A stretch of 64,000 nucleotides of DNA from Shinella sp. PSBB067 (GTDB lineage Bacteria > Pseudomonadota > Alphaproteobacteria > Rhizobiales > Rhizobiaceae). Shown here in pieces: positions 11,313-40,278 of this stretch. Under the pieces are notes generated by a model. That model was not told the DNA's origin. It saw nothing but the letters and a program-made list of their open reading frames with translations, and did no database searches. How positions within the stretch are numbered: position 1 is the stretch's first letter; the number at the start of each line of letters is the position of its first letter. A program made the position numbers and the translations under genes. The stretch is from positions 124,001 to 188,000 of the forward strand of contig NZ_CP069303.1 in the NCBI RefSeq assembly GCF_016839145.1. Reading direction: 5' to 3'.

Positions 11313-11357
11313 AACGCGCCGCGCTCGATCGTTGAAAGAAAATCAGGGAGAGTTGAA

Positions 11358-12197: not shown

Positions 12198-12206
12198 TCC
12201 GCCAAG

Positions 12207-12236: not shown

Positions 12237-12287
12237 TCATACCTCGCGCCCGTGCGGTGCCGGTCGAACCAGCCTGGAGTCACGCAT

Positions 12288-13753: not shown

Positions 13754-13792
13754 TCCGGAACGATCGGCGCATTGCCGAACCGCATCCAGAGC

Positions 13793-13811
13793 GCCGGCCC
13801 CCGGGGCCGGC
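13793..13811 (+). promoter_or_regulatory. GC-rich intercistronic hairpin
   Basis: GCCGGCCCC and GGGGCCGGC face each other around one base, giving a very stable stem between the transporter genes and the catabolic genes. There is no T-run. It may dampen read-through or mark an mRNA processing point. Confidence 0.45.
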
Positions 13812-13856
13812 CGGTTTCCTGCGTCCCGTCGCGGGCAGATATGAAGGTAGAATAGC

Positions 13857-15335: not shown

Positions 15336-15346
15336 GGGTTCCGCAA

Positions 15347-17038: not shown

Positions 17039-17062
17039 ACCAGATACCAAGAGGAGCCCGAA

Positions 17063-17845: not shown

Positions 17846-17869
17846 GGCTGGCAGGAAGGGAGCGGGAAG

Positions 17870-19129: not shown

Positions 19130-19176
19130 TCGGGCCCGCGCGGCAACACGGCCATGCGCCGGACAAGGAGAAACCG

Positions 19177-20610
19177 ATGTATGAAGAAACAATCGACCTG
19201 CTGATCGACGGCGTTTTCCGCAAGGGCAGCGAGGCCAAGAGCCAGCCGCTCGTAAATCCCGCGACCGGCGAGGAGATCGCCACGGTGCCGCATGCCTCGG
19301 CCGCCGACCTCGACGCAGCACTCGCCGCCGCCGATCGCGCATTCGGCCCCTGGAAGGCGCTGCCGGCGGTCAATCGCTACAAGATCATGATGAAGGCCGC
19401 CGACCTGATCGACGAGCGGCTGGAGACCATCGCCCGCGTCCTGACCATGGAGAATGGCAAGCCGCTCGCCGAGGCGAGGGGCGAGGTTGCCTTCTCGGCG
19501 GAAGCGACGCGCTGGTATGCCGAGGAAGGCAAGCGCGCCTATGGGCGCATCGTGCCGGGCCGCGTTCCGGGCCAGCGCCAGATGGTCTACAAGGAGCCGG
19601 TGGGCGTGGTCGCGGCTTTCGCGGCCTGGAACTTCCCGGCCTCCAACGTGATCCGCAAGATATCCGGCGCGCTCGCCGCCGGCTGCTCGATCATCCTCAA
19701 GACCGCCGAGGAAACCCCCGGCACGGCCGTGGCCTTCGCCCGCTGCTTCCAGGACGCCGGCCTGCCGAAAGGCGTGCTGAATCTCGTCTTCGGCGTGCCG
19801 GACGAGGTCTCGCTCCATCTTCTCGCCTCGCCAATCCCCAGGAAGGTGTCCCTTACCGGTTCCACTGCCGTGGGCAAGCTCCTGCAGAAGCGGGCCGCCG
19901 ACACGCTGAAGCGCACGACGATGGAACTTGGCGGCCATGCCCCGGTGCTGGTCTTTTCGGATGCCGACGTGGACCACGCGGTGGCGACGCTCGCCGCCGC
20001 CAAGTTCCGCAATGCCGGGCAGGTCTGCACCTCGCCCACCCGCTTCTTCGTGCATGAGAGCATCGCCGGTACCTTTGCCGCCGGCATGGCCGCGAAGGCT
20101 GCCGCGCTGAAGCTCGGCAACGGGCTCGATCCCGAAACACAGATGGGACCGATGATCGCCCCGCGCCGCTGCGACGCCATCCAGTCGCTGGTCGACGATG
20201 CCGTCGGCAAGGGGGCCGAACTGCTTGCCGGAGGCCAGCGTCTGGACCGGCCGGGCAATTTCTATCCGCCGACCGTGCTTTCCAACGTGCCGGAAAGCGC
20301 CCGGATCATGTCCGAGGAACCCTTCGGCCCCGTCGCCTCTATCGTGCCGTTCTCGACCTTCGATGAGGTTATCGCCCGGGCGAACGCTCTGCCCTACGGC
20401 CTTGCCTCCTTCGTCTTCACGAAGGACGGGGCGACCGCGCGCGATGCGGAAATGGCGCTGGAAGCCGGTCTCGTCGGCGTGAACCACACGATGATCTCGA
20501 CGCCCGAGACGCCGTTCGGCGGCGTCAACGAATCCGGCTTCGGTTCCGAGAGCGGTATCGAGGGGCTGGAGGCCTTCCAGCGCACCAAGTTCGTCTCCGA
20601 ACTGTTCTGA
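19177..20610 (+). CDS. NAD-dependent aldehyde dehydrogenase, succinate-semialdehyde dehydrogenase family
   Basis: A 477-aa aldehyde dehydrogenase of the GabD type. Catalytic residues are N152 (AWNFP), E250 (TMELGGHAP) and C284 (NAGQVCTSPTRF). The TSP after the Cys is typical of semialdehyde dehydrogenases. The ATG at 19177 follows AAGGAG, and the protein begins MYEETIDLLIDG as family members do. A semialdehyde of succinate, glutarate or ketoglutarate from the imino-acid pathway is the likely substrate. It is the second aldehyde dehydrogenase of this operon. Confidence 0.87.
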   Translation: MYEETIDLLIDGVFRKGSEAKSQPLVNPATGEEIATVPHASAADLDAALAAADRAFGPWKALPAVNRYKIMMKAADLIDERLETIARVLTMENGKPLAEARGEVAFSAEATRWYAEEGKRAYGRIVPGRVPGQRQMVYKEPVGVVAAFAAWNFPASNVIRKISGALAAGCSIILKTAEETPGTAVAFARCFQDAGLPKGVLNLVFGVPDEVSLHLLASPIPRKVSLTGSTAVGKLLQKRAADTLKRTTMELGGHAPVLVFSDADVDHAVATLAAAKFRNAGQVCTSPTRFFVHESIAGTFAAGMAAKAAALKLGNGLDPETQMGPMIAPRRCDAIQSLVDDAVGKGAELLAGGQRLDRPGNFYPPTVLSNVPESARIMSEEPFGPVASIVPFSTFDEVIARANALPYGLASFVFTKDGATARDAEMALEAGLVGVNHTMISTPETPFGGVNESGFGSESGIEGLEAFQRTKFVSELF

Positions 20611-20662
20611 AATATCCCGACGAAACGGTGGGGCGCCCCACCGCTTCGCGGCAGGAGGAAAG

Positions 20663-22048
20663 ATGACCGACAGGACCACGCCCAGGATATTGATCGTCGA
20701 TCTGGTGGGCCTTGCCATGGGCCCGGACGGGCTTCCGGACCATTCCGTCGTCAAGGCGCATGTCGAGGCCCGGGGCGACGTTTTCCATGAAGGCTCGGCG
20801 CGGGCCATACCGGCTCCCGAGCCCGGAAGGGCGCACTTCTATTATCAGCCTATGCTTTCCACCGAGGCCGAACTTCTGGCCGAGGCGGGAGACGGTCTCT
20901 ACGATGCCGTCATTGCGGCGGCGACGTTCCTGCCGAAGGGCACGCGCTTCGATCTCGGCGGCGTTCGGATCGGCACCGGAACCGGCAATATGGGGTCCGC
21001 GAGCTGGGGCGGCGGCGATGGCCGGGGCGGCATCGCCCCGCTGATGAACACGCCCGGCATCAATGCACGCGCCACCGCGCAGATGGTGATGAACGCGCTG
21101 CTCAGGGTGCGCCCCGACCTGCCGGTTGACGAGATGAATGCACTGGTGGCTGCGGGCCGTTTCGACACGGGGACCGATCTGGTCCGCTTTCCGACCGCCA
21201 AGCTGGAGGGTCGGACCTTCGCGGTGCTCGGCTACGGCAATATCGGCCGGGAAGTGGCGAAGCTCGCCCGGGCTTTCGGGATGACGGTGCGCATCTTCGC
21301 CCGCCCGCGCCATAGGGCGTGGATCGAGAGCGAGGGCTTCATCCATGCGGCCAGCCTCCTTGAAGCCGCGGCCGAGGCGGACGTGCTTTCCGTCCATGTC
21401 GGCCTCGGGCCGCTCGGGCCGGAAGGCCACGCCAATGCCGGGCTGATCGGCGCGGAGGTGCTGTCGGCGCTCGCCGAGGGGGCCGTGCTCATCAACTATG
21501 ATCGCGGCGAGCTGGTCGATGTCCCGGCTCTCGCCGCCGCCCTTTCCTCAGGGCGGGTCTCCCACGCAGCCATAGATGCCGATCTCTTTCGGGACCCGTC
21601 GAGCGGCGCGCTGTCCGGCCCTATGGCTCCGTATCTGTCCATCGTCCCGGCGCATGGCGCCAGGCTGTCGCTGCTGCCCCACGCCGCCGCGGATACGGAT
21701 CACCCGACCCGCGTGGTGGGAGCGATACAGGCGGTCGATCAGATCCTCGACGCCATCGAGCGGCGCGTCGTCCGCAATCTCAAGGGTGACCTGCCCGAAG
21801 GCTACACCGACGCCGGAGCCCGCACACCAGCTGGACTTGGCGGCATGACCGCGGGCGATCTGGAGGAACTGCGTTGCGACGAGGCCCGAATGGAAGCGCT
21901 GCGCACCGCCGCGCAAGGCCTTCTCGCAGCGCTCGACAGATTGGCGAATGAAGGTGCACGGACAGCGGGTGGCGATCTGTTGCTCCAAAGCAATATCCTC
22001 GCCACGCTGCTGCGTGCGCAGTCCCTGGAAGGACCCTTTCAAGGTTGA
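20663..22048 (+). CDS. Divergent D-isomer-specific 2-hydroxyacid dehydrogenase with C-terminal extension
   Basis: A 461-aa protein. The central NAD-binding domain is clear: GYGNIG at 190-195, then VLINYDRGELVDVPALAAAL with R281 in the position of the catalytic Arg, and H340 in LLPHAA. I do not find the usual catalytic Glu in the EP motif after the Arg; the segment is DADLFRDPSSG. Family members are about 310-330 aa; here residues 350-461 form an extra, mostly helical tail. The first 130 residues are also weakly conserved. It is the last gene of the 9637-22048 operon. It may be a reductase for an unusual 2-oxo acid or have lost hydride-transfer activity. Confidence 0.7.
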   Translation: MTDRTTPRILIVDLVGLAMGPDGLPDHSVVKAHVEARGDVFHEGSARAIPAPEPGRAHFYYQPMLSTEAELLAEAGDGLYDAVIAAATFLPKGTRFDLGGVRIGTGTGNMGSASWGGGDGRGGIAPLMNTPGINARATAQMVMNALLRVRPDLPVDEMNALVAAGRFDTGTDLVRFPTAKLEGRTFAVLGYGNIGREVAKLARAFGMTVRIFARPRHRAWIESEGFIHAASLLEAAAEADVLSVHVGLGPLGPEGHANAGLIGAEVLSALAEGAVLINYDRGELVDVPALAAALSSGRVSHAAIDADLFRDPSSGALSGPMAPYLSIVPAHGARLSLLPHAAADTDHPTRVVGAIQAVDQILDAIERRVVRNLKGDLPEGYTDAGARTPAGLGGMTAGDLEELRCDEARMEALRTAAQGLLAALDRLANEGARTAGGDLLLQSNILATLLRAQSLEGPFQG

Positions 22049-22375: not shown

Positions 22376-23290
22376 TCAATTTCCGAACGGAACGGTGAAG
22401 TTCAACCAGAGCCGATTGCCGCCGAGAGTGTTCCGGTGGATCACGTCCCTGGTATAGATGAGGTTCGCCTGCATCGGCCCGAACTGCCGCGTCACGCCTA
22501 GGCCGAGCCCGAGCTGCTCCGCCTTGCCGGCGATGGTTCCGCCGAAGGCGAGACCTTTGTTGTCGTCGTTCGTGACCTGCTTGCGGTAGTAGCCAACAGG
22601 GCCGATGCTCCACCCGTCGAAGTCCTTCATTGCCGTCATGTGCAACTGGATTTCATCGCCCGATCGATAGTCGTTGTCCTCGTTGCGCGTGTTCGTGAAG
22701 TAGATCGCATTGAGCGAAAGGTTCCATCCGTCGCGAAGGTGGCTGAAGCCCAGGCTCGGTGCGAAGGTCCAGAAATTGCCCTGCGTGTTGACCGGCTTCG
22801 TCGCATCCCAGCTCCCGGTCGGGGCGAAGACGCTGAAACCCGTGCTGACGAAGGTTCCCGGCGCGACCTGCCAGGAGAGATCGAACGGATGGACCTCGAT
22901 CTGGCCGAGGGAGAGCCGATCTGCCGTTCCCGTTCCGAAGGGCGGCGAGAGCGTCTGATCCAGGTCGAGTACCGGGACGGTCACGAACGCCTTGTATTGC
23001 CCGCCCCAGAGATTGAGTTCGGGCACCCAGAGAAACTGCAGGGCGGTGTCCTTCACCGTGACGTCGGCGCCCAGCCGGTTGCCGTCCCCGTCGTAGAGGC
23101 TGAGGTCGGCATACCCGCTGCGACTGCTGAAATACAGCCCAGGCGGCGGCGATGCGCCGACGGGCACCCCCATGCTCGCGCCCGGGGGCATCGAGGTCGG
23201 GACGCCGGGCTCGCGCGCCGCGACGGGTGTGGATAGGGCGACCATACCGCTCAGAAGTGACGCGCGAAGGGTTTTGGACAGCGTTCTCAT
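22376..23290 (-). CDS. Outer-membrane protein of the phenol/meta-pathway degradation family (SphA-like, COG4313)
   Basis: A 304-aa exported protein. A Sec signal of about 24 residues (MRTLSKTLRASLLSGMVALS, then TPVAA) precedes a mature part rich in alternating aromatic strands (GYADLSLYDGDGNRLGADVT, LWLNFTVPFGN at the end), a beta-barrel pattern. The family is often found in aromatic-degradation clusters and is thought to help hydrophobic or aromatic substrates cross the outer membrane. The start at 23290 has GGGAGGAAAA before it. The gene lies divergent from nothing but next to the AraC gene, and its upstream region shares an element with the AraC promoter (23403-23430). Confidence 0.75.
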   Translation of the reverse strand: MRTLSKTLRASLLSGMVALSTPVAAREPGVPTSMPPGASMGVPVGASPPPGLYFSSRSGYADLSLYDGDGNRLGADVTVKDTALQFLWVPELNLWGGQYKAFVTVPVLDLDQTLSPPFGTGTADRLSLGQIEVHPFDLSWQVAPGTFVSTGFSVFAPTGSWDATKPVNTQGNFWTFAPSLGFSHLRDGWNLSLNAIYFTNTRNEDNDYRSGDEIQLHMTAMKDFDGWSIGPVGYYRKQVTNDDNKGLAFGGTIAGKAEQLGLGLGVTRQFGPMQANLIYTRDVIHRNTLGGNRLWLNFTVPFGN

Positions 23291-23402
23291 TTTTCCTCCC
23301 CTGGACGAGAACTGCACCCGCCCTGTTCGACCCGTCGGGTCGGGAGGGCGGGCAACGATCACGGCAGTAGAGCGGGAGGGTTCAAAGTTGTCCTGCAACT
23401 AT

Positions 23403-23430
23403 GTGCACGACAGATGCCAGTTTTGTGCCC
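23403..23430. repeat. Copy 2 of GTGCAC-N-TTTTGTGC element, upstream of the outer-membrane protein gene
   Basis: GTGCAC, a 12-base spacer and TTTTGTGCCC. The same arrangement occurs at 24655-24683 with a 13-base spacer. It sits about 115 bases before the start at 23290, so it could be an operator for the adjacent AraC-type regulator. Confidence 0.55.
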
Positions 23431-23628
23431 ATTCAAGGTGTCAGTGGATGAATCCTGCACCCGTTCCTTCACCATTCAACATCTGTCTTCCATGCGTTTC
23501 CGCCCGGACAGCCAACAGCAGGAGGCTGAGGCGTCGCGGAGGGCGAAACCCGCAAGCGGGGGCAGCGGCACAGCCATTCGGAATTCCCGGATGGAAGCCT
23601 GCTCGCCCGCCAATAGCGAGGCGCAGTT

Positions 23629-24573
23629 CTAGGGACAGTTCTCGGTTCTGACCTGACTTGGGCTCCTGCCGTATTTCTTGCCGAACCGCTGGCTGAAATA
23701 GCCCGAGTCGTTAAATCCATTGCTGAAGGCAATGTCCTGCACGGTACGATGTCGATGGTTGGGGTTTTTCAATGCCTGATAAGCCCGGTCCAGGCGCTCG
23801 TTTTCAATCCACTTGTGCAGCGTGGTTCCTGTCGAGCCAAATATCCTGTGAATGTACCTGACCGAAATACCGGCTTTCTCGGCAATCTGCGAAACCGACA
23901 TGTCGGGATCCGCGAGATTCTCCAGGACGATCATGCGGATGCGTCTGAGTATCTGGTCATTCGACCTGGTCGTCTGGGCCTTGGCGCCGTCTTCGCTTTC
24001 CGCCTCCGAAATCAGATCCAGCATCGCGGAAGCAAGGGAATGCCCGATTTCGGGGAAGCTGTCGGCCTTTTCACTTTGAAGGGCGCGCACGATCCGTGAA
24101 ACGAGACCGCTCGTGCCGCTTTCACCGTTGAAGATACGCCCGCAAACGGTGTCGGTCAGCATGCCCCGACGCAAGAACTCTTCTTTCGGAAAGCGCAGTA
24201 CAATTCGCTGAACCGGGCTATCCACCTCGATAGAATAGGGAAGCGCGCTATCGAAGATAGAGTAGTCTCCGGGCTTCAGGCGCATGTCCCGTCCCAGGTG
24301 ACGAACGGTGCCTATGCCCGCAACTTGCAGGGCGAGAAAGTAGTCATTCCCCTTGTCGCGCTCGATGTTGGACAAGCCGCGTTCGATGATGACTGGATCG
24401 CTGTCTATGAATGAGCACTCGACCAGGCCGATCCGTGCGATCTGGATCTTGGCGTTGAAAGGCCTGCTGTCCAGGCGATGCGCCGTGAGATCGGCAATCC
24501 TGCGGATTGCCTTGCTGAAGATGCCGAACTGAGCGGACGGAGCAACGTGCTCCGTGGATAGAATAGTGATCAT
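23629..24573 (-). CDS. AraC family transcriptional regulator
   Basis: A 314-aa regulator. The C-terminal 100 residues carry the two helix-turn-helix motifs, with MSVSQIAEKAGISVRYIHRI and VQDIAFSNGFNDSGYFSQRF, the latter the AraC signature. The N-terminal 180 residues form an AraC-binding-like sensor domain (GRDMRLKPGDYSIFDSALPY). The start at 24573 follows GGGAGGTG; an upstream in-frame ATG at 24660 would cut into the inverted repeat. It is divergent from the aromatic operon starting at 24947 and sits beside the outer-membrane protein gene, so it most likely activates both. Confidence 0.87.
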   Translation of the reverse strand: MITILSTEHVAPSAQFGIFSKAIRRIADLTAHRLDSRPFNAKIQIARIGLVECSFIDSDPVIIERGLSNIERDKGNDYFLALQVAGIGTVRHLGRDMRLKPGDYSIFDSALPYSIEVDSPVQRIVLRFPKEEFLRRGMLTDTVCGRIFNGESGTSGLVSRIVRALQSEKADSFPEIGHSLASAMLDLISEAESEDGAKAQTTRSNDQILRRIRMIVLENLADPDMSVSQIAEKAGISVRYIHRIFGSTGTTLHKWIENERLDRAYQALKNPNHRHRTVQDIAFSNGFNDSGYFSQRFGKKYGRSPSQVRTENCP

Positions 24574-24654
24574 GGCACAGCGCTTCACCTCCCGCTCGAA
24601 AGCGTAAACGAGGCCCTGCCGCCTTGCAAGGCCACCGCTTCCATGGCCAGCAGA

Positions 24655-24683
24655 GTGCACAAAGTTCAGAGCGTTTTGTGCAC
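24655..24683. repeat. Copy 1 of GTGCAC-N-TTTTGTGC element: inverted repeat in the divergent AraC/operon promoter region
   Basis: GTGCACAAA (24655-24663) and TTTGTGCAC (24675-24683) form a perfect 9-bp inverted repeat with 11 bases between. It lies 82 bases before the AraC start and about 264 before the operon start. The remainder of the 373-base gap (24574-24946) holds no gene I can support. Confidence 0.6.
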
Positions 24684-24946
24684 CAACATGCAGGACTCGC
24701 CATGCGCGATTTGCTTATATCGGGCCGTTAACCGAGTGCAGAAGGCACCGAAAAACGTCGGGGGAAGAAGACATGACGAGTGGGGCCAGGACTTAGGCAA
24801 ACGGATTCTTGCAAGGCTCAAGTTGCGCCGTGCTTGCCGGTGAAAAGCATCGCTCGGCATGTCGAGCGGGGTTCGCTCATGCGCTTCATGATCTGAGCAG
24901 CGCACGTCAGCAAAATGAAACACGACATCAAACAGGGAGGATACTC

Positions 24947-25375
24947 ATGGACGTCAGTTTGGGTGCGGTAACGGTCGAAGAGGGCTTCAAGGCTCAGAAG
25001 TGGGATATCCTGGGGCAGATCTACACCCCGCTGCACGTCACGCAGACCTCCTTCGCCATCCATGCGGTCTTTCCTGCCGGAACCTTCGTTCCGCGCCATA
25101 TCCATGACACGCAGGACGAGTTCTTCCACATGCTGGAAGGAACGATGGTTTTCGAACTCGACGGCAAGGAGATCACGGCCGGCCCGGGCACTCATCTGAC
25201 GATGCCCATGGGCGTTCCTCACGCCATCTACAATCGTTCCGACAGAGATGTGGTCGCGCTGGTCGTCGTCTCCCCGACCCGTCGCTTCTACGAATACATG
25301 CAGAGGATCGACGGGATGACCGACCGGGACGAGATGGCCCGCCTTGCTGCGCTGCATGAGGTTCCCTTCGTCTGA
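24947..25375 (+). CDS. Single-domain cupin protein
   Basis: A 142-aa one-domain cupin. Metal-ligand candidates are H51 and H53 (PRHIHDTQDEFF), E58, and the His in PMGVPHAIYN of cupin motif 2. Small cupins in aromatic clusters act as dioxygenases, isomerases, cyclases or binding proteins; this one cannot be assigned. The start at 24947 follows GGGAGG. It is the first gene of a tightly ordered run to 31287 controlled from the divergent AraC promoter region. Confidence 0.8.
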   Translation: MDVSLGAVTVEEGFKAQKWDILGQIYTPLHVTQTSFAIHAVFPAGTFVPRHIHDTQDEFFHMLEGTMVFELDGKEITAGPGTHLTMPMGVPHAIYNRSDRDVVALVVVSPTRRFYEYMQRIDGMTDRDEMARLAALHEVPFV

Positions 25376-25419
25376 AGGACTGCCGCGTCGCAATCGACCG
25401 AAATCAACGGGAGGAACCA

Positions 25420-25839
25420 ATGAGCGTCAAGGACGCAATCGAAGGCTTCTGGGCCGCCCATAAAGCGGGCGACCATGAAGCGCTCAAAAAGGTCCTGGAC
25501 CAGGATTTCACCTGGACGGTGGTCGGCCGGACGTGTCCCATCGCCAAGACCTATCACGGCTGGGATGGATTCCTGGGGGAGCTTCTGGGTGGTCTCGCGA
25601 CCGCGTTCAGGCCGGGCAGCCTGAACATGAAACTGCTGGGCAGCTATGCGGACGAAGCGCAAGGGGTCGGCATCCTGCACCTTTTCGAGACCGCGACGAC
25701 GCAGGGCGGCGTCGATGTCGAGCACGAGATCGTCGACATCTTCCAGGTGCGCGACGGCAAGATCGTCGAAGTGCGTGAAATCATGGATCTGGCCGAGGTT
25801 AACAATGCCTTCGGCTTCGGCAACGGGGAACAAGAATGA
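25420..25839 (+). CDS. SnoaL-like / NTF2-fold polyketide-cyclase-type protein
   Basis: A 139-aa protein of the NTF2-like superfamily. The N-terminal helix pair (IEGFWAAHKAGDHEALKKVL), the sheet (DFTWTVVGRTCPIAKTYHG) and the final DIFQVRDGKIVEVREIMD are characteristic. Members are small isomerases, hydrolases or cyclases that use a cone-shaped pocket. Its stop overlaps the flavin monooxygenase start by four bases (ATGA), suggesting that it acts on the monooxygenase substrate or product. No more precise role can be read. Confidence 0.8.
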   Translation: MSVKDAIEGFWAAHKAGDHEALKKVLDQDFTWTVVGRTCPIAKTYHGWDGFLGELLGGLATAFRPGSLNMKLLGSYADEAQGVGILHLFETATTQGGVDVEHEIVDIFQVRDGKIVEVREIMDLAEVNNAFGFGNGEQE

Positions 25840-27026
25840 ACATCCTGGACAAGACTCTGGCGACCGATGAGCTGGTCGCACGCATCCACGGCATCGGGCC
25901 GCTGCTGCGCGAGAACGCCGCCAAGGCGGACCGCGAACGGCGCGTCCCCGATGAATGCGTCGAGGCGCTGACCTCGATCGGAGCGCTGAAGATCAACACG
26001 CCCAAGCGCTTCGGGGGCCATGAGGGCGGAGCGCGGATGCTGCTGGAGGCGGCCAGCACCATCGGTTACTACTGCACGAATGCCGCGTGGATCAGCGTCA
26101 TCTCGAACGTCTCGGTGATGTTGCCGCTGCGCTTTCCCGAAGCGGTGATCGAGCGGCTGTGGGCCGGTGGCGGGCCGCTTCGGATGGCCTCGGTAATCGT
26201 CACCCCCGGCAGCACCGCCGTGCGCGAAGGGGATGGCTATCGCGTCAGCGGTGAATGGCCCTTTGCGTCGAACATTTTCCATGCGAATTGGGCGCTCGGC
26301 GTGGTCTCGATCAAAGAGACGCCCGACGCAGAGCCTGAGCTCGGTTACGCCATCCTGCACAAGGACCAGTACACGATCAAGGATACCTGGTACACGATCG
26401 GGATGCGCGGCACCGGCAGCAACACATTCGCTGCCAAGGACCAGTTCGTTCCGGCCGATCAGGTGGTGCGGGCGGGCGCGATGCTGGGTCCGGACTTGGA
26501 AGCTTCGGCCGATGCCTCGTTTCTGCAGAGGCTTGCGCCGGTTTCGATGTTCCCGACGGTGATCGTCTCCGGTCCTCTGGGAGCGGCGCGTGCGGCGCTC
26601 GACCTGACCATCGAGGCTGCGTCCAGACGGCCGGTGACCTATTCGAAATACGCCCCCCAGAACACGTCGGGCGCTTTCGCCCAGGGGATCGGCGCGGCCA
26701 GCGCCAAGATCGACACCGCAGCGATGTTCCTGCGCCGCGCCTGCGACACCATTGACGTCGCCGCGCGCGGGATCGTGCCGATGTCGCGCGATGCGCGCGC
26801 GGGCATCCGCAATGACATCGCCCATGCCACCAAGAACCTGTCCGAGGCGATGGACGACATTGCCTGGCTGCATGGCACCGCGACCTTCGCGGACGCCAAC
26901 CCGATCGGCCGGCTGTACCGGGACGTCCAGACCGGGGTGCGCCACGCCATGGCCGCCGCGCCGCTCGGCTACGAGATCGGCGGGGCTGCGTTGCTCGGTG
27001 TCGAGCCGCCGACGCCGCTGGTCTAA
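25836..27026 (+). CDS. Acyl-CoA-dehydrogenase-fold flavin-dependent monooxygenase, oxygenase component (group D)
   Basis: A 396-aa protein with the acyl-CoA dehydrogenase fold but in the branch of two-component flavin monooxygenases (HsaA, HpaH-C2, DszC, indole-oxygenase-like). Recognisable segments are RVPDECVEALTSIGALKINT at the N-terminus, WPFASNIFHANWALG in the middle and MRGTGSNTFAAKDQFVPADQ. It would use reduced flavin supplied by the reductase encoded at 28566-29135 to hydroxylate an aromatic compound. It overlaps the SnoaL gene and is followed after 11 bases by an esterase. With gentisate-type ring cleavage downstream, a hydroxybenzoate or phenol-like substrate is inferred. Confidence 0.82.
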   Translation: MNILDKTLATDELVARIHGIGPLLRENAAKADRERRVPDECVEALTSIGALKINTPKRFGGHEGGARMLLEAASTIGYYCTNAAWISVISNVSVMLPLRFPEAVIERLWAGGGPLRMASVIVTPGSTAVREGDGYRVSGEWPFASNIFHANWALGVVSIKETPDAEPELGYAILHKDQYTIKDTWYTIGMRGTGSNTFAAKDQFVPADQVVRAGAMLGPDLEASADASFLQRLAPVSMFPTVIVSGPLGAARAALDLTIEAASRRPVTYSKYAPQNTSGAFAQGIGAASAKIDTAAMFLRRACDTIDVAARGIVPMSRDARAGIRNDIAHATKNLSEAMDDIAWLHGTATFADANPIGRLYRDVQTGVRHAMAAAPLGYEIGGAALLGVEPPTPLV

Positions 27027-27037
27027 GGAGACGTAAC

Positions 27038-28501
27038 ATGTCGGATTCCGTCGGAACGCGCATTGCGCGAACGGGAGAGGCTGTGCCGTCCGTTGCCCAG
27101 GGGAACCCGCTCGTTCGCGGGCCGTGGGTGGGCGAATTGCGCGACGCAGTCGCCTGCTATTACGGAATCCGCTACGCGCGGCTGTCGGATGCGAAGCGTC
27201 CGCGTTCGAAGGCGACCGCCGCATCGGGGCAACTCGATGTGGCGGGCCTGACGGACGTGCCGATCTTCCGGCAGCTTCCCAGCCGGCTGGAAATCGTCAC
27301 GGGTCCCGCCGGCCGTATCAATCCCCAGGACGATGAGGCCTTCTACCTCAATGTGTGGGCGCCGGAGGGAGCCGAAGGCCTTCCGGTACTGGTCTTCGTC
27401 CATGGCGGGGCCTGGGCGAGCGGCGGGGGTGCGATGCGCTGGTATCGCGGCGAACGGCTTGCCCGCGAAGGAATTGTCGTTGTCACCGTGAACTACCGGC
27501 TTGGCCCGGCAGGTCACCTCGCTCCCGACGATGATGCCGACCAGGACCACCGGCCATTCGGAGATCTTTTGCAGGCCCTGCGATGGGTCGGGCAGAACAT
27601 CGCGGAGCTTGGGGGCGATCCGGATCGGGTGACACTCGGCGGGCAGTCGGCGGGTGCCTGGTATGCCTGGGCCCTGGCCAGCCTGCCGGAGGCCAGAGGT
27701 CTGTTCCGCCAAGCGGCAATTCTCAGCATCCCGCAAATCAAGGCGTGGACGTCTGGCTATCGCGTGGCCTTCACGAACCGGGTTGAGGCAATCCGGCGCG
27801 AATCCGGAGCCGCGCCGGGGAGTAAGAGCCTGCTGCGTGCGGCCGCGCAGGTGTTGAGCGAAACGCCGCGTATCGCCGGCGCCATGCCGCCGATGTACCT
27901 CCCCATGCTGTCGGGGGAAGCGGCCGGCATTCTGGAAAGTGCGACCAGCGCGGCTGAGCACCTGCATGCCGACGCGCTCTACGTCCGCATCACCCGGCAT
28001 GAAATGTCGGTGTTCCTGCCGCCGCTGGAGCCTGGATCGGCGGCGGGCGACACCCTCATGGAAGCGTTGCGGGCGCGTTGCCGAGGGGAGGCCGTTCCGC
28101 ACCATCCGGCTCCCCGGCACTGGGATTCTCGTTATGCCGAGGCCGTTGAACTGTCGTCTTGGCTGGAGTTCGGCCGCTTCGCCAACGAGATAGCGGCGCA
28201 GGCCCGCAAGCGCGGTCGGCCCGTCATCTCGCGCGAGTTCGATGTGGAGGCCGGGCAGCCCGGTTTCGGCGCGGTCCACTGTATCGACCTGCCGTTCCAG
28301 TTCGGCAACCGGGCGGACTGGGATGACGCGCCGATGCTGGCGGGATGGCAAGGCGGAGCTTTCGAAGAGATCAGCCGCGAATTGCGCGGCGATCTCGCGG
28401 ATTTCGTCCGGGGTCGGCACGACAGTTCGCATCGTGTCTTCTCGGCAGCGAGGCATGTCACGCACCCGACAGACGGGAACGACGACACATGCGCTCGATG
28501 A
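27038..28501 (+). CDS. Type-B carboxylesterase
   Basis: A 487-aa alpha/beta-hydrolase of the carboxylesterase/lipase type B family. The oxyanion-hole motif is HGGAWASGGG (from 122), the nucleophile is S204 in GGQSAG, and the catalytic His is in AVHCIDLPFQFG near the C-terminus. No signal peptide is seen, so it is cytoplasmic. It separates the monooxygenase from its reductase, so it is part of the pathway operon. A likely role is removal of an ester or carbamate group from an aromatic substrate before or after hydroxylation. Substrate unknown. Confidence 0.85.
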   Translation: MSDSVGTRIARTGEAVPSVAQGNPLVRGPWVGELRDAVACYYGIRYARLSDAKRPRSKATAASGQLDVAGLTDVPIFRQLPSRLEIVTGPAGRINPQDDEAFYLNVWAPEGAEGLPVLVFVHGGAWASGGGAMRWYRGERLAREGIVVVTVNYRLGPAGHLAPDDDADQDHRPFGDLLQALRWVGQNIAELGGDPDRVTLGGQSAGAWYAWALASLPEARGLFRQAAILSIPQIKAWTSGYRVAFTNRVEAIRRESGAAPGSKSLLRAAAQVLSETPRIAGAMPPMYLPMLSGEAAGILESATSAAEHLHADALYVRITRHEMSVFLPPLEPGSAAGDTLMEALRARCRGEAVPHHPAPRHWDSRYAEAVELSSWLEFGRFANEIAAQARKRGRPVISREFDVEAGQPGFGAVHCIDLPFQFGNRADWDDAPMLAGWQGGAFEEISRELRGDLADFVRGRHDSSHRVFSAARHVTHPTDGNDDTCAR

Positions 28502-28565
28502 TCGTCGCAGGAGCAAGCCGGGACTTGGCAGTCCGGATTTCGAAACCAGCCAACGGGAGAGGCAC

Positions 28566-29135
28566 ATGTCCTATTGCTCTACCATAGCCGCGCCGCCGTC
28601 CTCGAACGAGCAGGTCTGGGGCAACATCGATCTGCAGTCGCGTACCCTGCGCAACCTTTTCGGCAGCTATCCGACGGGTGTGGCGATCGTCACCACGCGC
28701 GCCCCCGACGGGAGGCCGGTGGGGCTGACCATCAGTTCCTTTGCGTCGCTGTCTCTCGAGCCGCCGCTTGTACTGTGGAGTCTCGGCGTCCAATCCTCGA
28801 ACCTCGATGTGTTCCGTGATTGCGAGCACTTCACGATCAACGTCCTGGACCGGCGTGATGAGGAATTGGCGCGTCAGTTCTCGAACTCGCGGATCCAGGA
28901 CAAGTTCGCCGGCGTCGATATCGACGAAACGCCCGAGGGTGTTCCGGCCATCGCGAGCGCCCTGACGATACTTGTTTGCGCGCATGACGACAGCCGCATC
29001 GTCGGAGATCACCTCCTGATGATCGGGCGGGTGGTGCGTACGGCAAGCCGACCGGGCGAGCCGCTCGTCTTCCACGCCGGCCGCTTCACGACCCTGCCCG
29101 CCGTGGAAGGGACGGGTTCCTCCGGCCGCCAGTGA
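28566..29135 (+). CDS. Flavin reductase, partner of the two-component monooxygenase
   Basis: A 189-aa flavin reductase domain protein (FMN-binding split barrel; HpaC/HsaB type). Typical segments are YPTGVAIVTTRAPDGRPVGL, TISSFASLSLEPPLVLWSL and the FHAGRFTTL end. It reduces free FAD or FMN with NAD(P)H for the oxygenase encoded at 25836-27026. The start at 28566 follows CGGGAGAG; the long upstream open frame overlaps the esterase gene and has no family resemblance. Confidence 0.87.
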   Translation: MSYCSTIAAPPSSNEQVWGNIDLQSRTLRNLFGSYPTGVAIVTTRAPDGRPVGLTISSFASLSLEPPLVLWSLGVQSSNLDVFRDCEHFTINVLDRRDEELARQFSNSRIQDKFAGVDIDETPEGVPAIASALTILVCAHDDSRIVGDHLLMIGRVVRTASRPGEPLVFHAGRFTTLPAVEGTGSSGRQ

Positions 29136-29239
29136 GCGGCGCCCCGCCAGGCGAAGCCAGCTTCGACGCAACCAGATCGTCCCGAGGTTCACCACCGACC
29201 AGGAACCCGTAGGACGCCCAACAGAAGATGGAGATACCG

Positions 29240-30364
29240 ATGTCCAGACTGAGAGAGAACTACCGCGAAGACGTGGCCGGCCGCGCCAACGTCGAGGATA
29301 CCCCCGAGCTCCTCGCCTATTACGAAGAGCTGGAAAAGCTCGAAGCCGGCGCGCTCTGGACCGTCGCCAACAAGATCGAGCCATGGGAGCCCAAGTCCGA
29401 CTCGGTTCCGGTCCTGTGGCGCTACAGGGACATGCGCGAGCTCGTGCTGCGCTCCGTCAGCATGGTGACGCCCGAGAAGGCGGGTCGAAGGGTGGTTTAC
29501 CTGAACAACCCGGGCCGGCGCGAATACTCCGCCGCCGTGGGCTGGCTCTTCTCGGGTCTTCAGATCATGCATCCGGGCGAGCGGGCCTCGGCCCATGCCC
29601 ATTCGGCCTCGGCGCTGCGCTTCATCATGGAAGGGGCAGGAGCCTATACCATCGTCGACGGCCGCAAGCTGACGCTGGGCGCGAACGACTTCGTGATCAC
29701 CCCCAACGGCTGCTGGCACGAGCATGGCGTGGTCGAGGACGGCAAGCCCTGCATCTGGCAGGACGGGCTGGATATCCCGCTGACCAATGCGCTGGAGACC
29801 AATTTCTATGCGGTGCACAAGGACCTTACCCAGGTCGTGACTCATCCGGTCAACCACTCGGTCGCAGCCTGGGGCAATGCTGGCCTGCGGCCCTATGGCG
29901 AGGAGTGGAACAATCCCTATTCGCCGCTGCTGAAGTTCGAGTGGGCCCCGACCTATGAGGCGCTGGTGAAGTACAGCAAGGTCACCGACGGCTCGCCCTA
30001 CGACGGAATCCTGATGAACTACGTCAACCCGCTGACCGGCGGCCCGGTGATGCAGACCACCGGCGCGGCGATGCAGCTTCTGCGGCCGGGCGAGCACACC
30101 AGGGCCCACCGCCACACCGGATGCGCGGTCTATCAGGTGTCGAAGGGCAAGGGCTATTCGATCATCAACGGCAAGCGCTTCGACTGGCAGGAGCGTGACA
30201 TCTTCTGCGTCCCGGCCTGGGCGTGGCACGAGCACGGCAACGCCTCGAACAGTGAGGACGCGTGCCTGTTCAACTTCAACGACTCGCCGACGATCAATGC
30301 CCTCGGCCTCTATCGCGAGCAGGCGTTCGGCGAGAACGACGGCCATCAGCCGATCCTGACCTGA
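29240..30364 (+). CDS. Gentisate 1,2-dioxygenase family ring-cleaving bicupin
   Basis: A 374-aa bicupin. In the N-terminal cupin the Fe ligands H119 and H121 (SAHAHSASALRF) and H160 (GCWHEHG) are present; EGAGAYTIVDG and the motif LDIPLTNALETNFY are typical of gentisate and related salicylate or hydroxynaphthoate dioxygenases. It would open the ring between the carboxyl- and hydroxyl-bearing carbons, giving maleylpyruvate from gentisate. I use the ATG at 29240, which has GGAGA at good spacing; the ATG at 29228 has none. The next gene encodes a FAH-family hydrolase, as expected for this pathway. Confidence 0.85.
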   Translation: MSRLRENYREDVAGRANVEDTPELLAYYEELEKLEAGALWTVANKIEPWEPKSDSVPVLWRYRDMRELVLRSVSMVTPEKAGRRVVYLNNPGRREYSAAVGWLFSGLQIMHPGERASAHAHSASALRFIMEGAGAYTIVDGRKLTLGANDFVITPNGCWHEHGVVEDGKPCIWQDGLDIPLTNALETNFYAVHKDLTQVVTHPVNHSVAAWGNAGLRPYGEEWNNPYSPLLKFEWAPTYEALVKYSKVTDGSPYDGILMNYVNPLTGGPVMQTTGAAMQLLRPGEHTRAHRHTGCAVYQVSKGKGYSIINGKRFDWQERDIFCVPAWAWHEHGNASNSEDACLFNFNDSPTINALGLYREQAFGENDGHQPILT

Positions 30365-30375
30365 GGTAGATCGTC

Positions 30376-31287
30376 ATGCGTCTTGTCACTTATCGCAGCA
30401 ATGCCGAGGCGGAAGCCCGTCTCGGTGTCCTCGACGGCGATCTGGTCGTCGATGCCCAACGCCTGGGCGCGCAGGCGGGTTTTCCCCTGCCGTCCCGGAT
30501 GCTCGACCTGATCGACCTGGGGCCGGCCGCACTGGCCGTGCTGGGGACGGCGCTGGCCGACACGCGCGGCCGCTGGCAGGCCGGCGTCGCGGTGCCGGCC
30601 GGAAACGTGAAGCTGCTCTCCCCGATCCCGCGGCCGCGGAAGAACATCTTCGGCATAGGCCTGAACTATGTCGAGCATGTCGCCGAATCCGCGCGCACGC
30701 TCGATACCTCGAAGGAGTTGCCGAAGCAGCCGGTGATCTTCTCGAAGCCGCCGACGACGGTCGTCGGCCCGGGCGACGCCATCGAGCACAACGCCAGGAT
30801 CACCCGGCAACTGGACTGGGAGGTCGAGCTGGCGGTGATCATCGGCCGCACCGCGCGCCGCGTCACCGAGGCGGACGCGCTGTCCTGCGTCTTTGGCTAC
30901 AGCGTGATGATCGACATGAGCGCGCGCGACTGCCGCCGGGCGGGCCAGTGGATCTATTCCAAGGGCCAGGACACGTATGCGCCCTTCGGCCCCTGCATCG
31001 TCACCGCCGACGAGATCGCCGATCCCCACAGCCTCGACCTGTGGCTGACAGTCAACGGTGAGGTGAAGCAGAAGTCGAACACCCGTCACATGCTGTTCAA
31101 GGTTCCTGCGCTGATCGCCGACATCAGTGCCGGCATCACGCTGGAGCCCGGCGACATCATCGCCACCGGGACGCCGGACGGTGTGGGGGCAGGGCGCGAT
31201 CCGCAGGAATGGGTCTGGCCCGGAGACGTGATCGAAGCTGGTGTCGACGGTATCGGCAGGCTCCGTCACTCGGTGGTCGCTGTCTAG
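30376..31287 (+). CDS. Fumarylacetoacetate hydrolase family protein, probable maleylpyruvate hydrolase
   Basis: A 303-aa FAH-family enzyme. The metal-binding acids are E149 and E151 (DWEVELAVIIG) and D180 (MIDMSARD); the C-terminal block LEPGDIIATGTPDGVG is standard. It lies eleven bases after the gentisate-type dioxygenase gene. With maleate isomerase in the same cluster, hydrolysis of maleylpyruvate to maleate plus pyruvate is the best fit, since no glutathione-dependent maleylpyruvate isomerase is present. A role on fumarylpyruvate cannot be excluded. Confidence 0.82.
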   Translation: MRLVTYRSNAEAEARLGVLDGDLVVDAQRLGAQAGFPLPSRMLDLIDLGPAALAVLGTALADTRGRWQAGVAVPAGNVKLLSPIPRPRKNIFGIGLNYVEHVAESARTLDTSKELPKQPVIFSKPPTTVVGPGDAIEHNARITRQLDWEVELAVIIGRTARRVTEADALSCVFGYSVMIDMSARDCRRAGQWIYSKGQDTYAPFGPCIVTADEIADPHSLDLWLTVNGEVKQKSNTRHMLFKVPALIADISAGITLEPGDIIATGTPDGVGAGRDPQEWVWPGDVIEAGVDGIGRLRHSVVAV

Positions 31288-31300
31288 GGATCGCAACCGG

Positions 31301-31328
31301 GGCGCAGGCCGCAGGCGCGGCCTGCGCC
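31301..31328 (+). promoter_or_regulatory. Strong stem-loop after the FAH gene
   Basis: GGCGCAGGCC pairs perfectly with GGCCTGCGCC around an 8-base loop, 14 bases after the FAH stop. GTCTTCT follows rather than a T-run. It may act as a partial terminator or 3' stabiliser, so the nitrilase and isomerase genes may be transcribed at a different level. Confidence 0.55.
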
Positions 31329-31360
31329 GTCTTCTCGGCAACCCAGAAAGGAAGAGGTCG

Positions 31361-31633
31361 ATGTGCTGGTTTGGTTCCGTCTCTCGGGACATGCGGCTTC
31401 TGGACGAGAGCACTTGCCATGAAGCCGTTCCCGAGCCCCAGGTGAAGCATTCCGTCGAGGACCGGCCTGTTCCGATCTGTGCCGCGGCCGCAAGCGGTCA
31501 ACGATGCGAAGGATGCCGGAATGCCCCGAGGCCGGACATTTCGGCAGGGCAGAACCAGTTCACCGACATGAGGTCTCCGTCGTCGGGTCATGACCTTGTC
31601 GCGGCAATGGTCCCGGGATCGGGAATAGTGTGA
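31361..31633 (+). CDS. Possible 90-aa hypothetical protein in the FAH-nitrilase gap
   Basis: An open frame in the 450-base gap. It starts after an excellent AAAGGAAGAGG ribosome site and begins MCWFGSVSRDMRLLDE. It has four Cys in the N-terminal two-thirds, including a CEGC motif, but no recognised family, signal or membrane segment. Codon usage is less GC-biased at third positions than in neighbours. It may be a real small gene or a chance frame; the rest of the gap shows nothing else. Confidence 0.3.
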   Translation: MCWFGSVSRDMRLLDESTCHEAVPEPQVKHSVEDRPVPICAAAASGQRCEGCRNAPRPDISAGQNQFTDMRSPSSGHDLVAAMVPGSGIV

Positions 31634-31737
31634 GGCCCACGAAAATCAGGCGGCTTTTCTCGAACGGGAGCGAACTTGCCCTCGTCCGCGAGAACAGGTC
31701 TCCACCCCAACACCCGAGCCCGATTGGAGGCATGTTC

Positions 31738-32757
31738 ATGCTCGATCTTCCCCGTTTCAAAGCTGCGGCCGTTCAGGCTGCACCGGTTTTTCTGAACACC
31801 GAGGCGACCGTCGACAAGGTGTGCGCCTTGATCGGAGAGGCGGCCGGCAACGGCGCTCGACTGGTCGCCTTTCCCGAGGTCTTTGTCTCGGCGTATCCCT
31901 ATTGGAGCTGGGTCATGAACCCGGTTGAGGGTAGCCCCTGGTTCGAAAAGCTGGTGCGCTCGGCCGTTCACGTTCCAGGCCCCGAGATCGCCAAGATCGC
32001 CGAGGCCGCCGCGCGCCACCGGATCAACGTCGTGATCGGCGTGAACGAGCGCAGCCGAAACGGGATCGGCACGATTTACAACACTCTGGTCACCATCGCC
32101 GATGACGGTCGCATCCTCGGCCGGCACCGCAAGCTGGTCCCGACCTGGGCCGAGAAGCTGACCTGGGCACCGGGCGATGCCTCGGCGCTCAAGGTCCATG
32201 ACACCAGCATCGGCCCGCTGGGCGCCCTGGCCTGCGGCGAGAACACCAACACGCTGGCGCGCTTCTCGTTGCTGGCGCAGGGCGAGCTCGTGCATGTGGC
32301 CAGCTACATCGCCCTGCCGGTCGCGCCCGCCGACTACGATATGGCTGAGGCGATCAAGGTCCGCGCCGCGGCGCACTGCTTCGAGGGCAAGGTCTTCACG
32401 ATCGTCTCCTGCTCGACCGTCTCGCAAGAGATCGTCGAAGCGATGTCGGCCTCGCATCCCCAGGCGCGCGATTTGCTGGCACGGCGCAACAGCGCCTTTT
32501 CCGGCATCCTCGGTCCGGACGGGCGGGTGATCGGCGAACCGCTGATTGACGATGAAGGCATCGTCTATGCCGAGATCGATCTCGCACGCTGCATTCAGCC
32601 ACGGCAGATGCATGACATTACCGGCCACTACAATCGCTTCGACGTTTTCGACCTCCGCGTGAACCGCAGGCCGCTCCAGCCGGCCCGCTTCGACGACGGC
32701 GACCTCGATGCGAATTTCGAATCCCTTTCCGAAGCCAATCTGGAGACCGACCAATGA
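31738..32757 (+). CDS. Nitrilase (carbon-nitrogen hydrolase superfamily)
   Basis: A 339-aa nitrilase-branch protein. The catalytic triad is E47 (FPEVFVSAYPYW), K132 (RKLVPTWAEK) and C166 (ACGENTN). FVSAYPYW and the CGEN motif are typical of true nitrilases that hydrolyse nitriles to acids and ammonia, not of amidases. The start at 31738 has GGAGG seven bases before it; the ATG at 31732 is too close to that site. Its stop overlaps the maleate isomerase start by four bases. In this context it could convert an aromatic nitrile to a benzoate that feeds the pathway. Confidence 0.85.
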   Translation: MLDLPRFKAAAVQAAPVFLNTEATVDKVCALIGEAAGNGARLVAFPEVFVSAYPYWSWVMNPVEGSPWFEKLVRSAVHVPGPEIAKIAEAAARHRINVVIGVNERSRNGIGTIYNTLVTIADDGRILGRHRKLVPTWAEKLTWAPGDASALKVHDTSIGPLGALACGENTNTLARFSLLAQGELVHVASYIALPVAPADYDMAEAIKVRAAAHCFEGKVFTIVSCSTVSQEIVEAMSASHPQARDLLARRNSAFSGILGPDGRVIGEPLIDDEGIVYAEIDLARCIQPRQMHDITGHYNRFDVFDLRVNRRPLQPARFDDGDLDANFESLSEANLETDQ

Positions 32758-33512
32758 GCGCCGCGCGCCTGATCCGTGTGGGGCAGATCGTCCCGTCCTC
32801 GAACACCACCATGGAGACCGAGATCCCGGCGATCCTGAGAGCCCGCGAAGCGAGCCAGCCCGAACGCTTCACCTTCCATTCCAGCCGCATGCGGATGAAA
32901 AGGGTGACGAAGGAAGAACTGGCGGCGATGGACTGTGACAGCGACCGCTGCGCACTGGAGCTGTCGGATGCCCGCGTCGATGTGCTCGGCTATGCCTGCC
33001 TCGTCGCCATCATGAGCATGGGGCTGGGCTACCACCGCGTATCTCAAGAGCGCCTGCACAAGGTCACCGCCGACAACGGTGCTCCAGCGCCCGTGGTGAG
33101 CAGCGCCGGGGCGCTGGTCGACGGCCTTCATGCAATCGGAGCCAGGAAGATCTCCCTGCTCGCGCCCTACATGAAGCCGCTGACCAAGCTCGTCATCGAA
33201 TATATCGAGAACGAGGGGATCGAAGTGGTGGATAGCATCTCGCTCGAGATTGCGGACAACCTGGAGGTGGGACGCCAGGATCCGCTGGCGCCGGCAGAGA
33301 TCACGAAGCGGCTGGACATCAACGGCGTCGACGCAATCGTCGCCTCGGCCTGCGTGCAGATGCCGTCTCTCGGCTCGATCCAGTTGATCGAAGACCGAAC
33401 CGGGCTTCCCGTCATCTCCTCGTCCGTAGCAACGACATACATGATGCTCAAGCAACTCGGCCTGACCACGGCTGTTCCCGGCTTTGGTTCGCTGCTGTCG
33501 GGCAAGTTCTAA
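32754..33512 (+). CDS. maiA: Maleate cis-trans isomerase
   Basis: A 252-aa protein of the Asp/Glu racemase superfamily that closely matches known maleate isomerases through its length: QIVPSSNTTMETEIPA, RFTFHSSRMRMK and VDVLGYACLVAIMSMGLGYH. The two catalytic cysteines are C82 (GYACLV) and C200 (ASACVQM). It converts maleate to fumarate, which enters the TCA cycle. The gene overlaps the nitrilase gene (ATGA). In many bacteria maleate isomerase belongs to nicotinate degradation; here no nicotinate genes are present and a gentisate-type ring cleavage plus FAH hydrolase supply maleate. Confidence 0.92.
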   Translation: MSAARLIRVGQIVPSSNTTMETEIPAILRAREASQPERFTFHSSRMRMKRVTKEELAAMDCDSDRCALELSDARVDVLGYACLVAIMSMGLGYHRVSQERLHKVTADNGAPAPVVSSAGALVDGLHAIGARKISLLAPYMKPLTKLVIEYIENEGIEVVDSISLEIADNLEVGRQDPLAPAEITKRLDINGVDAIVASACVQMPSLGSIQLIEDRTGLPVISSSVATTYMMLKQLGLTTAVPGFGSLLSGKF

Positions 33513-35197: not shown

Positions 35198-35239
35198 GGA
35201 AATTCCGGTGGTAAGGCCCGGCAAGCGAGCGGAAAACAA

Positions 35240-35264
35240 AAGGCCAGGCGATTTGCCTGGCCTT
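35240..35264 (-). terminator. Intrinsic terminator of the cold-shock gene
   Basis: A perfect 10-bp stem (AAGGCCAGGC with GCCTGGCCTT) and 5-base loop. On the minus strand it is followed by TTTTGTTTTCC. It ends the cold-shock transcript. Just upstream lies a 25-base sequence (minus strand, about 35284-35308) repeated exactly at about 40147-40171. Confidence 0.85.
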
Positions 35265-35328
35265 GCGTGGTTGGCGTGCTTCCGGCAGTGCCAGTACATC
35301 CGTGGTCAAAGGAAAGCACGAGACCCGT

Positions 35329-35538
35329 TCAGGCGGCCTGGAGATTGCAGGCCGACATCTTGCCCGACTTGTTGTCGCGCTCCAGCTCGAAACCGATCTT
35401 CTGGCCTTCGACAAGCTCGCGCATGCCTGCCCGCTCGACGGCGGAGATGTGGACGAACGCGTCGGCGCCGCCATTGTCAGGCTGGATGAAGCCGAAGCCC
35501 TTGGTGGAATTGAACCATTTAACTGTGCCGGTGGTCAT
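35329..35538 (-). CDS. Cold-shock protein (CspA family)
   Basis: A 69-aa single cold-shock domain. RNP1 is KGFGFIQP (13-20) and RNP2 is DAFVHIS (26-32), with W8 and F9 also conserved. It binds single-stranded nucleic acid and works as an RNA chaperone. The start at 35538 follows AAAGGG; longer frames upstream are not part of the fold. The C-terminus MSACNLQAA is compared below with two decayed relatives. The upstream 5' region is long, as is usual for csp mRNAs. Confidence 0.93.
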
Positions 35539-40049: not shown

Positions 40050-40189
40050 TTCGACACGGCGGCTGCCCATATGTCGTCCATAGGCATTGCTGATGAGCGC
40101 TGGAAAAACTCTGCCGCTCGCAATTGCCGCCATCGCTTCACGCTTTTGACCACGGATGTACTGGCACTGGCAGGCAAGCGATTGTGAAG
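40050..40189 (+). pseudogene. Probable decayed cold-shock gene remnant 2
   Basis: The bases ahead of the terminator at 40190 include a 25-base run (about 40147-40171) identical to the 3' region of the intact csp gene. Further upstream, segments around CGTCCA, GAGCGC and GCAAT...GCCGCC can be lined up with csp codons for FVH, ER and NLQAA, in broken frames. A frame at 40038-40187 exists but reads through this remnant. The coding match is weak; the 3' match is clear. Confidence 0.4.
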
Positions 40190-40217
40190 AAGGCCGGTGC
40201 GGTATCGCCCCGGCCTT
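40190..40217 (+). terminator. Intrinsic terminator of the csp-remnant 2 region
   Basis: AAGGCCGG pairs with CCGGCCTT around a 12-base loop and is followed by TTTTGTTCG. It has the same design as the terminator of the intact cold-shock gene. No intact plus-strand gene lies upstream. Confidence 0.75.
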
Positions 40218-40278
40218 TTTGTTCGCTGGCGAGGGCGAGGATGCCGCAACCCGGTTTGCCAGTCAGCCTGCCGGCTTT

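Follow-up and report, generated by a model that had tools for sequence, protein, structure and literature searches.

A nitrilase-fold enzyme in a recurring gentisate-type ring-cleavage core: a possible nitrogen-releasing route in Shinella sp. PSBB067

We analysed a 64,000-nucleotide stretch of Shinella sp. PSBB067 (the window; C2:124001-188000 of the 5.77-Mb genome labelled G000), which carries a cluster of eleven genes ending with a gentisate-type cupin ring-cleavage dioxygenase (GDO), an FAH-family hydrolase, a nitrilase-superfamily enzyme and a maleate isomerase. These four genes form a core that is widespread in Proteobacteria. Since the set was found in dozens of genomes, and a second time in the genome of the window, the cluster goes beyond chance. 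The reading that we rate at slightly better than even is that the core is a form of the gentisate lower pathway that releases nitrogen, with the nitrilase acting after ring opening, under an upper module supplying hydroxyanthranilate. We infer every substrate, product and reaction named below from gene content, homology, catalytic residues, and recurring gene order and partners.

Enzymes and recurrence of the core

Families were assigned by Pfam and NCBIfam profile searches and by sequence searches of the PDB (Table 1). The dioxygenase is homologous to 3bu7 over its full length (residues 13-376 of 378). With the NCBIfam gentisate_1_2 model (TIGR02272) it scored 301.8 bits, short of the equivalog cut-off of 442.1, and so represents a divergent clade. 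The 3bu7 protein is the GDO of a Ruegeria pomeroyi DSS-3 megaplasmid cluster (SPO_RS20365-20415), with zero differences over 374 aligned residues. That cluster also holds nitrilase, GDO, FAH and isomerase genes together, but in the order nitrilase-GDO-FAH-isomerase and with IorAB, a thioesterase, two MarR genes and a tricarboxylate transporter. The FAH protein of the window, a member of a broad family, matched maleylpyruvate hydrolase 6jvv with an E of 2e-39, and seven other PDB sequences scored higher.

The nitrilase has a CN_hydrolase domain (Pfam, 130 bits) with the catalytic Glu-Lys-Cys set at E48, K133 and C167, counted from the ATG at 31735; the sequence-only reading made earlier of this DNA had named the right residues, numbered one too low (E47-K132-C166). 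The nearest solved structure is NitA. Glycine follows the catalytic cysteine (C-G-E) in all 87 aligned members of the clade with at least 60% identity, as Gly168 in the window protein, while tryptophan stands there in 16 of 16 other aligned nitrilases (7 NIT4-like, 3 Tistrella type and 6 others), suggesting that the pocket of this clade may be unusual. The C-W-E motif seen in many nitrilases is thus absent from the window protein; it is not universal among nitrilases, as PDB 6zby has alanine at that position. The NIT4-like type and the window nitrilase share 34% identity, and the former matches plant NIT4 (E 5.5e-105).

The isomerase is similar over its full length to the crystallised maleate isomerase 4fq7 (343 bits), and both cysteines at the catalytic places, C82 and C200, are exactly where the sequence-only reading had put them. 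Two other identities were rejected against those 343 bits: EutA (92.4 bits, cut-off 318) and arylmalonate decarboxylase (65.5 bits, cut-off 225).

To follow the core across genomes, we took the best 80 of at least 572 confirmed loci from a nitrilase scan, spanning alpha-, beta- and gammaproteobacteria. Partners were detected by tblastn in flanks of up to 10 kb (some contigs were shorter), with the nitrilase present by construction. GDO and FAH were each found in 74 of the 80 loci and the isomerase in 59; further partners were a coenzyme A (CoA) hydroxylase (52), a thioesterase (51), IorB (50), IorA (47) and isatin hydrolase (18). The commonest order, seen in 27 loci, was IorA-IorB-thioesterase-CoA hydroxylase-GDO-FAH-nitrilase-isomerase. 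The distance from FAH to nitrilase, measured between aligned ends, did not exceed 250 bp in 59 of the 75 loci with an FAH match. The nitrilase and isomerase genes of the window overlap by the sequence ATGA, and the neighbourhood check that had been proposed for this overlap bore it out: an in-frame isomerase start overlaps the nitrilase stop in 47 of 58 same-strand loci (ATGA in 42, GTGA or TTGA in 5). At the thresholds used, six of the 80 loci have the nitrilase-isomerase pair without GDO and FAH. The overlap and these six loci suggest that the product of the nitrilase may be the substrate of the isomerase.

The pairs lacking the dioxygenase are in L083, L084, L086, L101, L105 and L069, the last of which retains an FAH fragment. 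The pair in L086 adjoins Rieske oxygenase-like and 3-hydroxybenzoate-6-monooxygenase-like genes, both under their cut-offs. Such pairs may draw the same C4 compound from another source. G644 has two isomerase genes: one adjoins the nitrilase gene, and the other (66%) has an isochorismatase-family gene at a distance of about 2 kb, as in the arrangement of NicE with the maleamate amidase NicF.

The second core in the genome of the window lies at about C3:343480-347329, where GDO, FAH, nitrilase and isomerase are 69, 73, 72 and 72% identical to those of the window, respectively. Its neighbours are an isatin-hydrolase relative of the cyclase family (PDB 5nna, E 9.8e-100), homologues of IorAB and of the thioesterase, and, judged by eye, two MarR-like regulator genes. 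A second isatin-hydrolase homologue (Pfam Cyclase, 61% identical to the first) is ~15 kb off, together with CoA-ligase, thiolase-like and SDR genes. Among 60 relatives of this genome, the best other nitrilase match was only 39% identical, so that the genus and its kin do not generally carry the core.

Partners of the core and a proposed nitrogen-releasing route

The recurring partners are of the indole, isatin and tryptophan type, which suggests a ring carrying nitrogen (the anthranilate type) rather than gentisate. Homologous cores adjoin isatin hydrolase, IorAB, Rieske or StyA-like genes, a likeness to the catabolic clusters for indole, isatin and indole-acetate (iif, ind and iad). The CoA hydroxylase is represented in L052 by a 771-residue fusion that scored 1294.7 with the salicylyl-CoA 5-hydroxylase model, over the cut-off of 1078. 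IorAB and isatin hydrolase would fit a sequence from isatin through isatinate to anthraniloyl-CoA. Elsewhere on C2 of the window's genome, a homologue of the CoA hydroxylase (58% to the L052 fusion) shares one stretch with genes for tryptophan dioxygenase, kynureninase and a member of the benzoate-CoA-ligase family.

In L109 (3303-11787), genes for an alpha/beta hydrolase, a tryptophan dioxygenase relative, kynureninase and an amino-acid permease relative lead directly into GDO-FAH-nitrilase-isomerase. The kynureninase passed its cut-off (270.5 bits against 246.4), while the tryptophan dioxygenase relative is divergent (311 bits, cut-off 390.7). The alpha/beta hydrolase scored 147.8 with the NCBIfam 'hormone-sensitive lipase' family (cut-off 320), and from its place it would be a formamidase. 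The product of kynureninase retains the ring nitrogen. No CoA hydroxylase was detected in this locus, which is possibly a 5-hydroxytryptophan operon. In Cupriavidus sp. IDO, an indole degrader, the core is accompanied by IorAB, thioesterase, CoA hydroxylase, a StyA-like monooxygenase and an isatin-hydrolase homologue. Four of the 80 loci (L061, L068, L073 and L075; Cupriavidus) have a StyA-like monooxygenase within the stretch fetched around the core, perhaps as an indole-oxidising upper module.

In the route that we favour, the upper module of the window (cupin, SnoaL-like protein, monooxygenase, esterase and reductase, with the divergent AraC regulator) would deliver hydroxyanthranilate, most probably through oxidation of a compound of the indole or anthranilate-ester type. 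The dioxygenase would cleave 5-hydroxyanthranilate (2-amino-5-hydroxybenzoate), or a close analogue, between the carboxyl- and amino-bearing carbons, turning the amine into a carboxamide; in gentisate-type cleavage between C1, which bears the carboxylate, and C2, the C2 substituent would stay on the new terminal carbon. The FAH protein would cleave the ring-fission product to give maleamate and pyruvate. The nitrilase-fold protein would then release ammonia from maleamate by hydrolysis, and the isomerase would convert the resulting maleate to fumarate. Because a C2 amine would leave an amide (or a nitrile) after cleavage, a C-N hydrolase would be needed ahead of the isomerase, and the nitrilase holds that place.

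This proposal has likenesses to two known pathways. One variant of the gentisate lower pathway cleaves maleylpyruvate hydrolytically, and the core shares its gentisate-family cupin dioxygenase, its FAH-family hydrolase and, by prediction, its maleate end product. In the core, however, a nitrilase-fold enzyme is inserted between FAH and isomerase, a maleate isomerase is employed, and the dioxygenase scores under the equivalog cut-off. The nicotinate pathway ends with the maleamate amidase NicF and the maleate isomerase NicE. Here too an isomerase close to 4fq7 is paired with a C-N hydrolase that would yield maleate, but this hydrolase has a nitrilase fold and is not of the isochorismatase family, and maleamate would derive from a carbocyclic instead of a pyridine ring.

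The sequence-only reading had run the lower route from gentisate to maleate and fumarate. Its gentisate-type dioxygenase, FAH hydrolase and maleate isomerase relative stand, and a maleate-to-fumarate end is plausible; gentisate as the ring substrate is less likely than an anthranilate-type compound, given the partners described above. That reading had also let an aromatic nitrile enter through the nitrilase, a role that is probably wrong. Such a route, in which hydrolysis and then hydroxylation would turn a hydroxylated aromatic nitrile or ester into gentisate for cleavage, with no nitrogen left at that stage, would agree with a nitrilase closest to true nitrilases, a dioxygenase closest to an enzyme named gentisate dioxygenase, and an esterase whose Ser, Glu and His align. 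We nevertheless hold it to be unlikely, as the nitrilase is part of the lower core, recurring with GDO, FAH and isomerase and being coupled translationally to the latter, while upper modules vary; no search aimed at other nitrile genes was made.

Another entry through the nitrilase would start from indole-3-acetonitrile, giving indole-3-acetate for degradation by neighbouring indole-acetate or isatin genes. In Alcaligenes and Paenalcaligenes loci, Rieske oxygenase-like and CoA-ligase-like genes and an isatin-hydrolase homologue do adjoin the core. Homologues of that Rieske oxygenase were found in just 9 of the 80 loci, however, and the nitrilase is also present in the kynureninase-bearing L109 and in the six loci where it accompanies the isomerase without GDO and FAH, which leaves this entry improbable. 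We give a similarly low probability to a ring nitrogen at another position, of the 5-aminosalicylate type, from which FAH would still give maleamate as the nitrilase substrate: the 5-aminosalicylate dioxygenase model gave the window dioxygenase 274.4 bits, close to what it scored with the gentisate model, but this is far under the cut-off of 650, and the recurring partners indicate anthranilate.

A variant of the proposed route would have the dioxygenase turn the amino-bearing carbon into a nitrile, so that FAH would release cis-3-cyanoacrylate and pyruvate and a true nitrilase would form maleate. The nitrilase-type genes of these loci, including NIT4-like ones, would fit it. So would a negative result in 14 related genomes and that of the window, none of which has an isochorismatase-family gene on the contig of the dioxygenase at 30 kb or less from it, although the queries covered nitrilase-type and isochorismatase proteins only, amidase-signature enzymes were not searched, and other amidases are possible. 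We regard this variant as rather unlikely; if true, it would be an aromatic catabolic pathway that produces its own nitrile.

The reverse test started from the dioxygenase. At an E of 1e-100, it was found in 7 of 399 genomes of the order of G061 and in 19 of 397 of the order of the window's genome, query genomes counted in. Of 24 other hit loci (L178-L201), we kept the 18 with a GDO of at least 60% identity and an adjacent FAH, and dropped two without FAH and four with a GDO near 50% and no FAH. Eight of the 18 have a nitrilase-type gene in the fetched flanks: five of the window clade, two NIT4-like and one of the Tistrella type. Among the plasmid records, 8 of 15 were examined, and such a gene is in L143, L145, L146, L203, L205 and L206 and in neither L202 nor L204.

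Several observations weigh against the nitrogen-releasing route. The other 10 of the 18 dioxygenase-selected loci show no nitrilase-type gene in their fetched flanks (L192 is only 4.5 kb long), so that the nitrilase is frequent but not obligatory nearby; three such loci carry IorA (L178, L180 and L182), and in G410, also without a nitrilase in the flanks, a 38% relative lies 11.5 kb away. In the window itself, 447 bp (31288-31734) separate FAH from nitrilase, and shortly past the FAH stop they contain a perfect inverted repeat of 12 bp (31301-31312/31317-31328), which makes co-transcription of the two genes uncertain; a GTG open reading frame (ORF) spanning the gap (31241-31633) has no Pfam match. 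The relatives of the window nitrilase are nitrilases and not known amidases. The 3bu7 protein is named gentisate 1,2-dioxygenase and is reported to be active on gentisate, which may be the natural substrate. The IorA relative, at 284.8, falls short of the cut-off of its model (650.9), which leaves its substrate a guess. Homologues of kynureninase and tryptophan dioxygenase occur in just one and two of the 80 nitrilase loci, respectively, and in none of 29 further loci. Finally, the operon of the window, unlike the indole, isatin and indole-acetate clusters, lacks isatin hydrolase, IorAB and CoA hydroxylase among the genes around its core, and its upper module is rare.

The loci without a nitrilase and the gap in the window would suit a passenger nitrilase with a general role, gentisate proceeding through maleylpyruvate and maleate to fumarate without it. 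This is also unlikely in our view, because three types of nitrilase (window clade, NIT4-like and Tistrella type) are found in such loci and because of the 47 overlaps with the isomerase. If the nitrogen-releasing route is right, a widespread nitrilase clade, labelled merely 'carbon-nitrogen hydrolase' in the plasmid records examined, would be given a physiological role, what becomes of nitrogen when many Proteobacteria break down indole, indole-acetate and tryptophan would become testable, and the crystallised 'gentisate dioxygenase' 3bu7 may have another natural substrate.

The rare upper module and the surrounding genes

In the window, the core is joined to a rare upper module, which makes it a lead to the substrate of that module. 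The monooxygenase is of the group D type, an acyl-CoA-dehydrogenase-type oxygenase with a separately encoded flavin reductase. By far its best solved match is XiaF (E 3.6e-72; next match E 1.5e-37), an indole hydroxylase, with 247 bits versus 133 for the HsaA chain and 80 for the C2 hydroxylase chain. The NCBIfam HsaA model (NF045629) gave 179.1 bits, under the equivalog cut-off of 450. The Ser, Glu and His of the esterase line up with solved carboxylesterases. Oxidation of an indole-type ring by this module is a serious candidate that we place somewhat below even; 5-hydroxylation of anthranilate freed from an ester is a more tentative one.

Relatives of the monooxygenase are scarce. Besides its own, one of 396 genomes of its order has one at an E of 1e-60 (35%), as do none of 398 genomes of the order of G062 besides Alcaligenes faecalis, and 44 of 72,556 plasmid records at an E of 1e-40 (best 38%); tblastn found no homologue in the fetched flanks of the 80 nitrilase-selected loci. 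The best relative, from Alcaligenes faecalis (48%), is paired with a 39% esterase and accompanied by a flavin reductase and a relative of the 2,5-dihydroxypyridine dioxygenase NicX. A link to pyridine-diol cleavage drawn from this neighbourhood was rejected: we noticed no NicX in the window, and the sole NicX homologue found in the genome (49%) sits in another module. A module of NicX-like, acyl-CoA-dehydrogenase-like and alpha/beta-hydrolase proteins is encoded from C2:3908319 onward (L149, L150), near the tryptophan-to-anthranilate genes of this genome. In Aminobacter and in three genomes from the family of the window (L145, L183, L185 and L194), the same module adjoins GDO-FAH; three of these four have a NIT4-like nitrilase.

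All eleven genes are where the sequence-only reading had placed them and matched the families it had given; it was also right that nearly all run in one direction, nine of them (24944-33512) on the plus strand. For the SphA/MetA-like protein, the true start is probably downstream of the TTG at which the ORF begins.

Table 1. Genes of the cluster, with positions in the window and main matches.
Product	Position	Strand	Evidence
SphA/MetA-like outer-membrane protein	22376..23398	-	Pfam Phenol_MetA_deg 130 bits; ORF from TTG
AraC-family regulator, divergent from operon	23629..24660	-	Pfam HTH_18, AraC_binding_2
Small cupin protein	24944..25375	+	Pfam Cupin_2 59 bits
SnoaL-like protein	25420..25839	+	Pfam SnoaL_2 33 bits
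Group D-type flavin monooxygenase, oxygenase component	25836..27026	+	Nearest solved XiaF (PDB 5lvu)
Type-B carboxylesterase	27038..28501	+	Pfam COesterase 142 bits; top PDB 8wdm E 6.5e-38
Flavin reductase, likely monooxygenase partner	28560..29135	+	Pfam Flavin_Reduct 131 bits; FerA/HsaB-like, under cut-offs
Gentisate-type cupin ring-cleavage dioxygenase (GDO)	29228..30364	+	PDB 3bu7 E 1.2e-168
FAH-family hydrolase (putative maleylpyruvate or maleamylpyruvate hydrolase)	30376..31287	+	Pfam FAA_hydrolase 238 bits
Nitrilase-superfamily enzyme, C-G-E clade (putative maleamate or cis-3-cyanoacrylate hydrolase)	31735..32757	+	PDB NitA 6zby E 2.8e-65
Maleate cis-trans isomerase	32754..33512	+	PDB 4fq7 E 6.9e-102; 4-bp overlap with nitrilase

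Upstream of the cluster, the block 10320-22048 encodes a proline racemase, an amino-acid ABC transporter, aldehyde dehydrogenases, and GMC and DAO-type FAD oxidoreductases, and looks like a separate hydroxyproline-type cluster. Downstream, the alphaproteobacterial small RNA family ar35 matched at 40080-40224 on the plus strand (126.9 bits) and at 35233-35369 on the minus strand (45.4 bits; gathering score 45).

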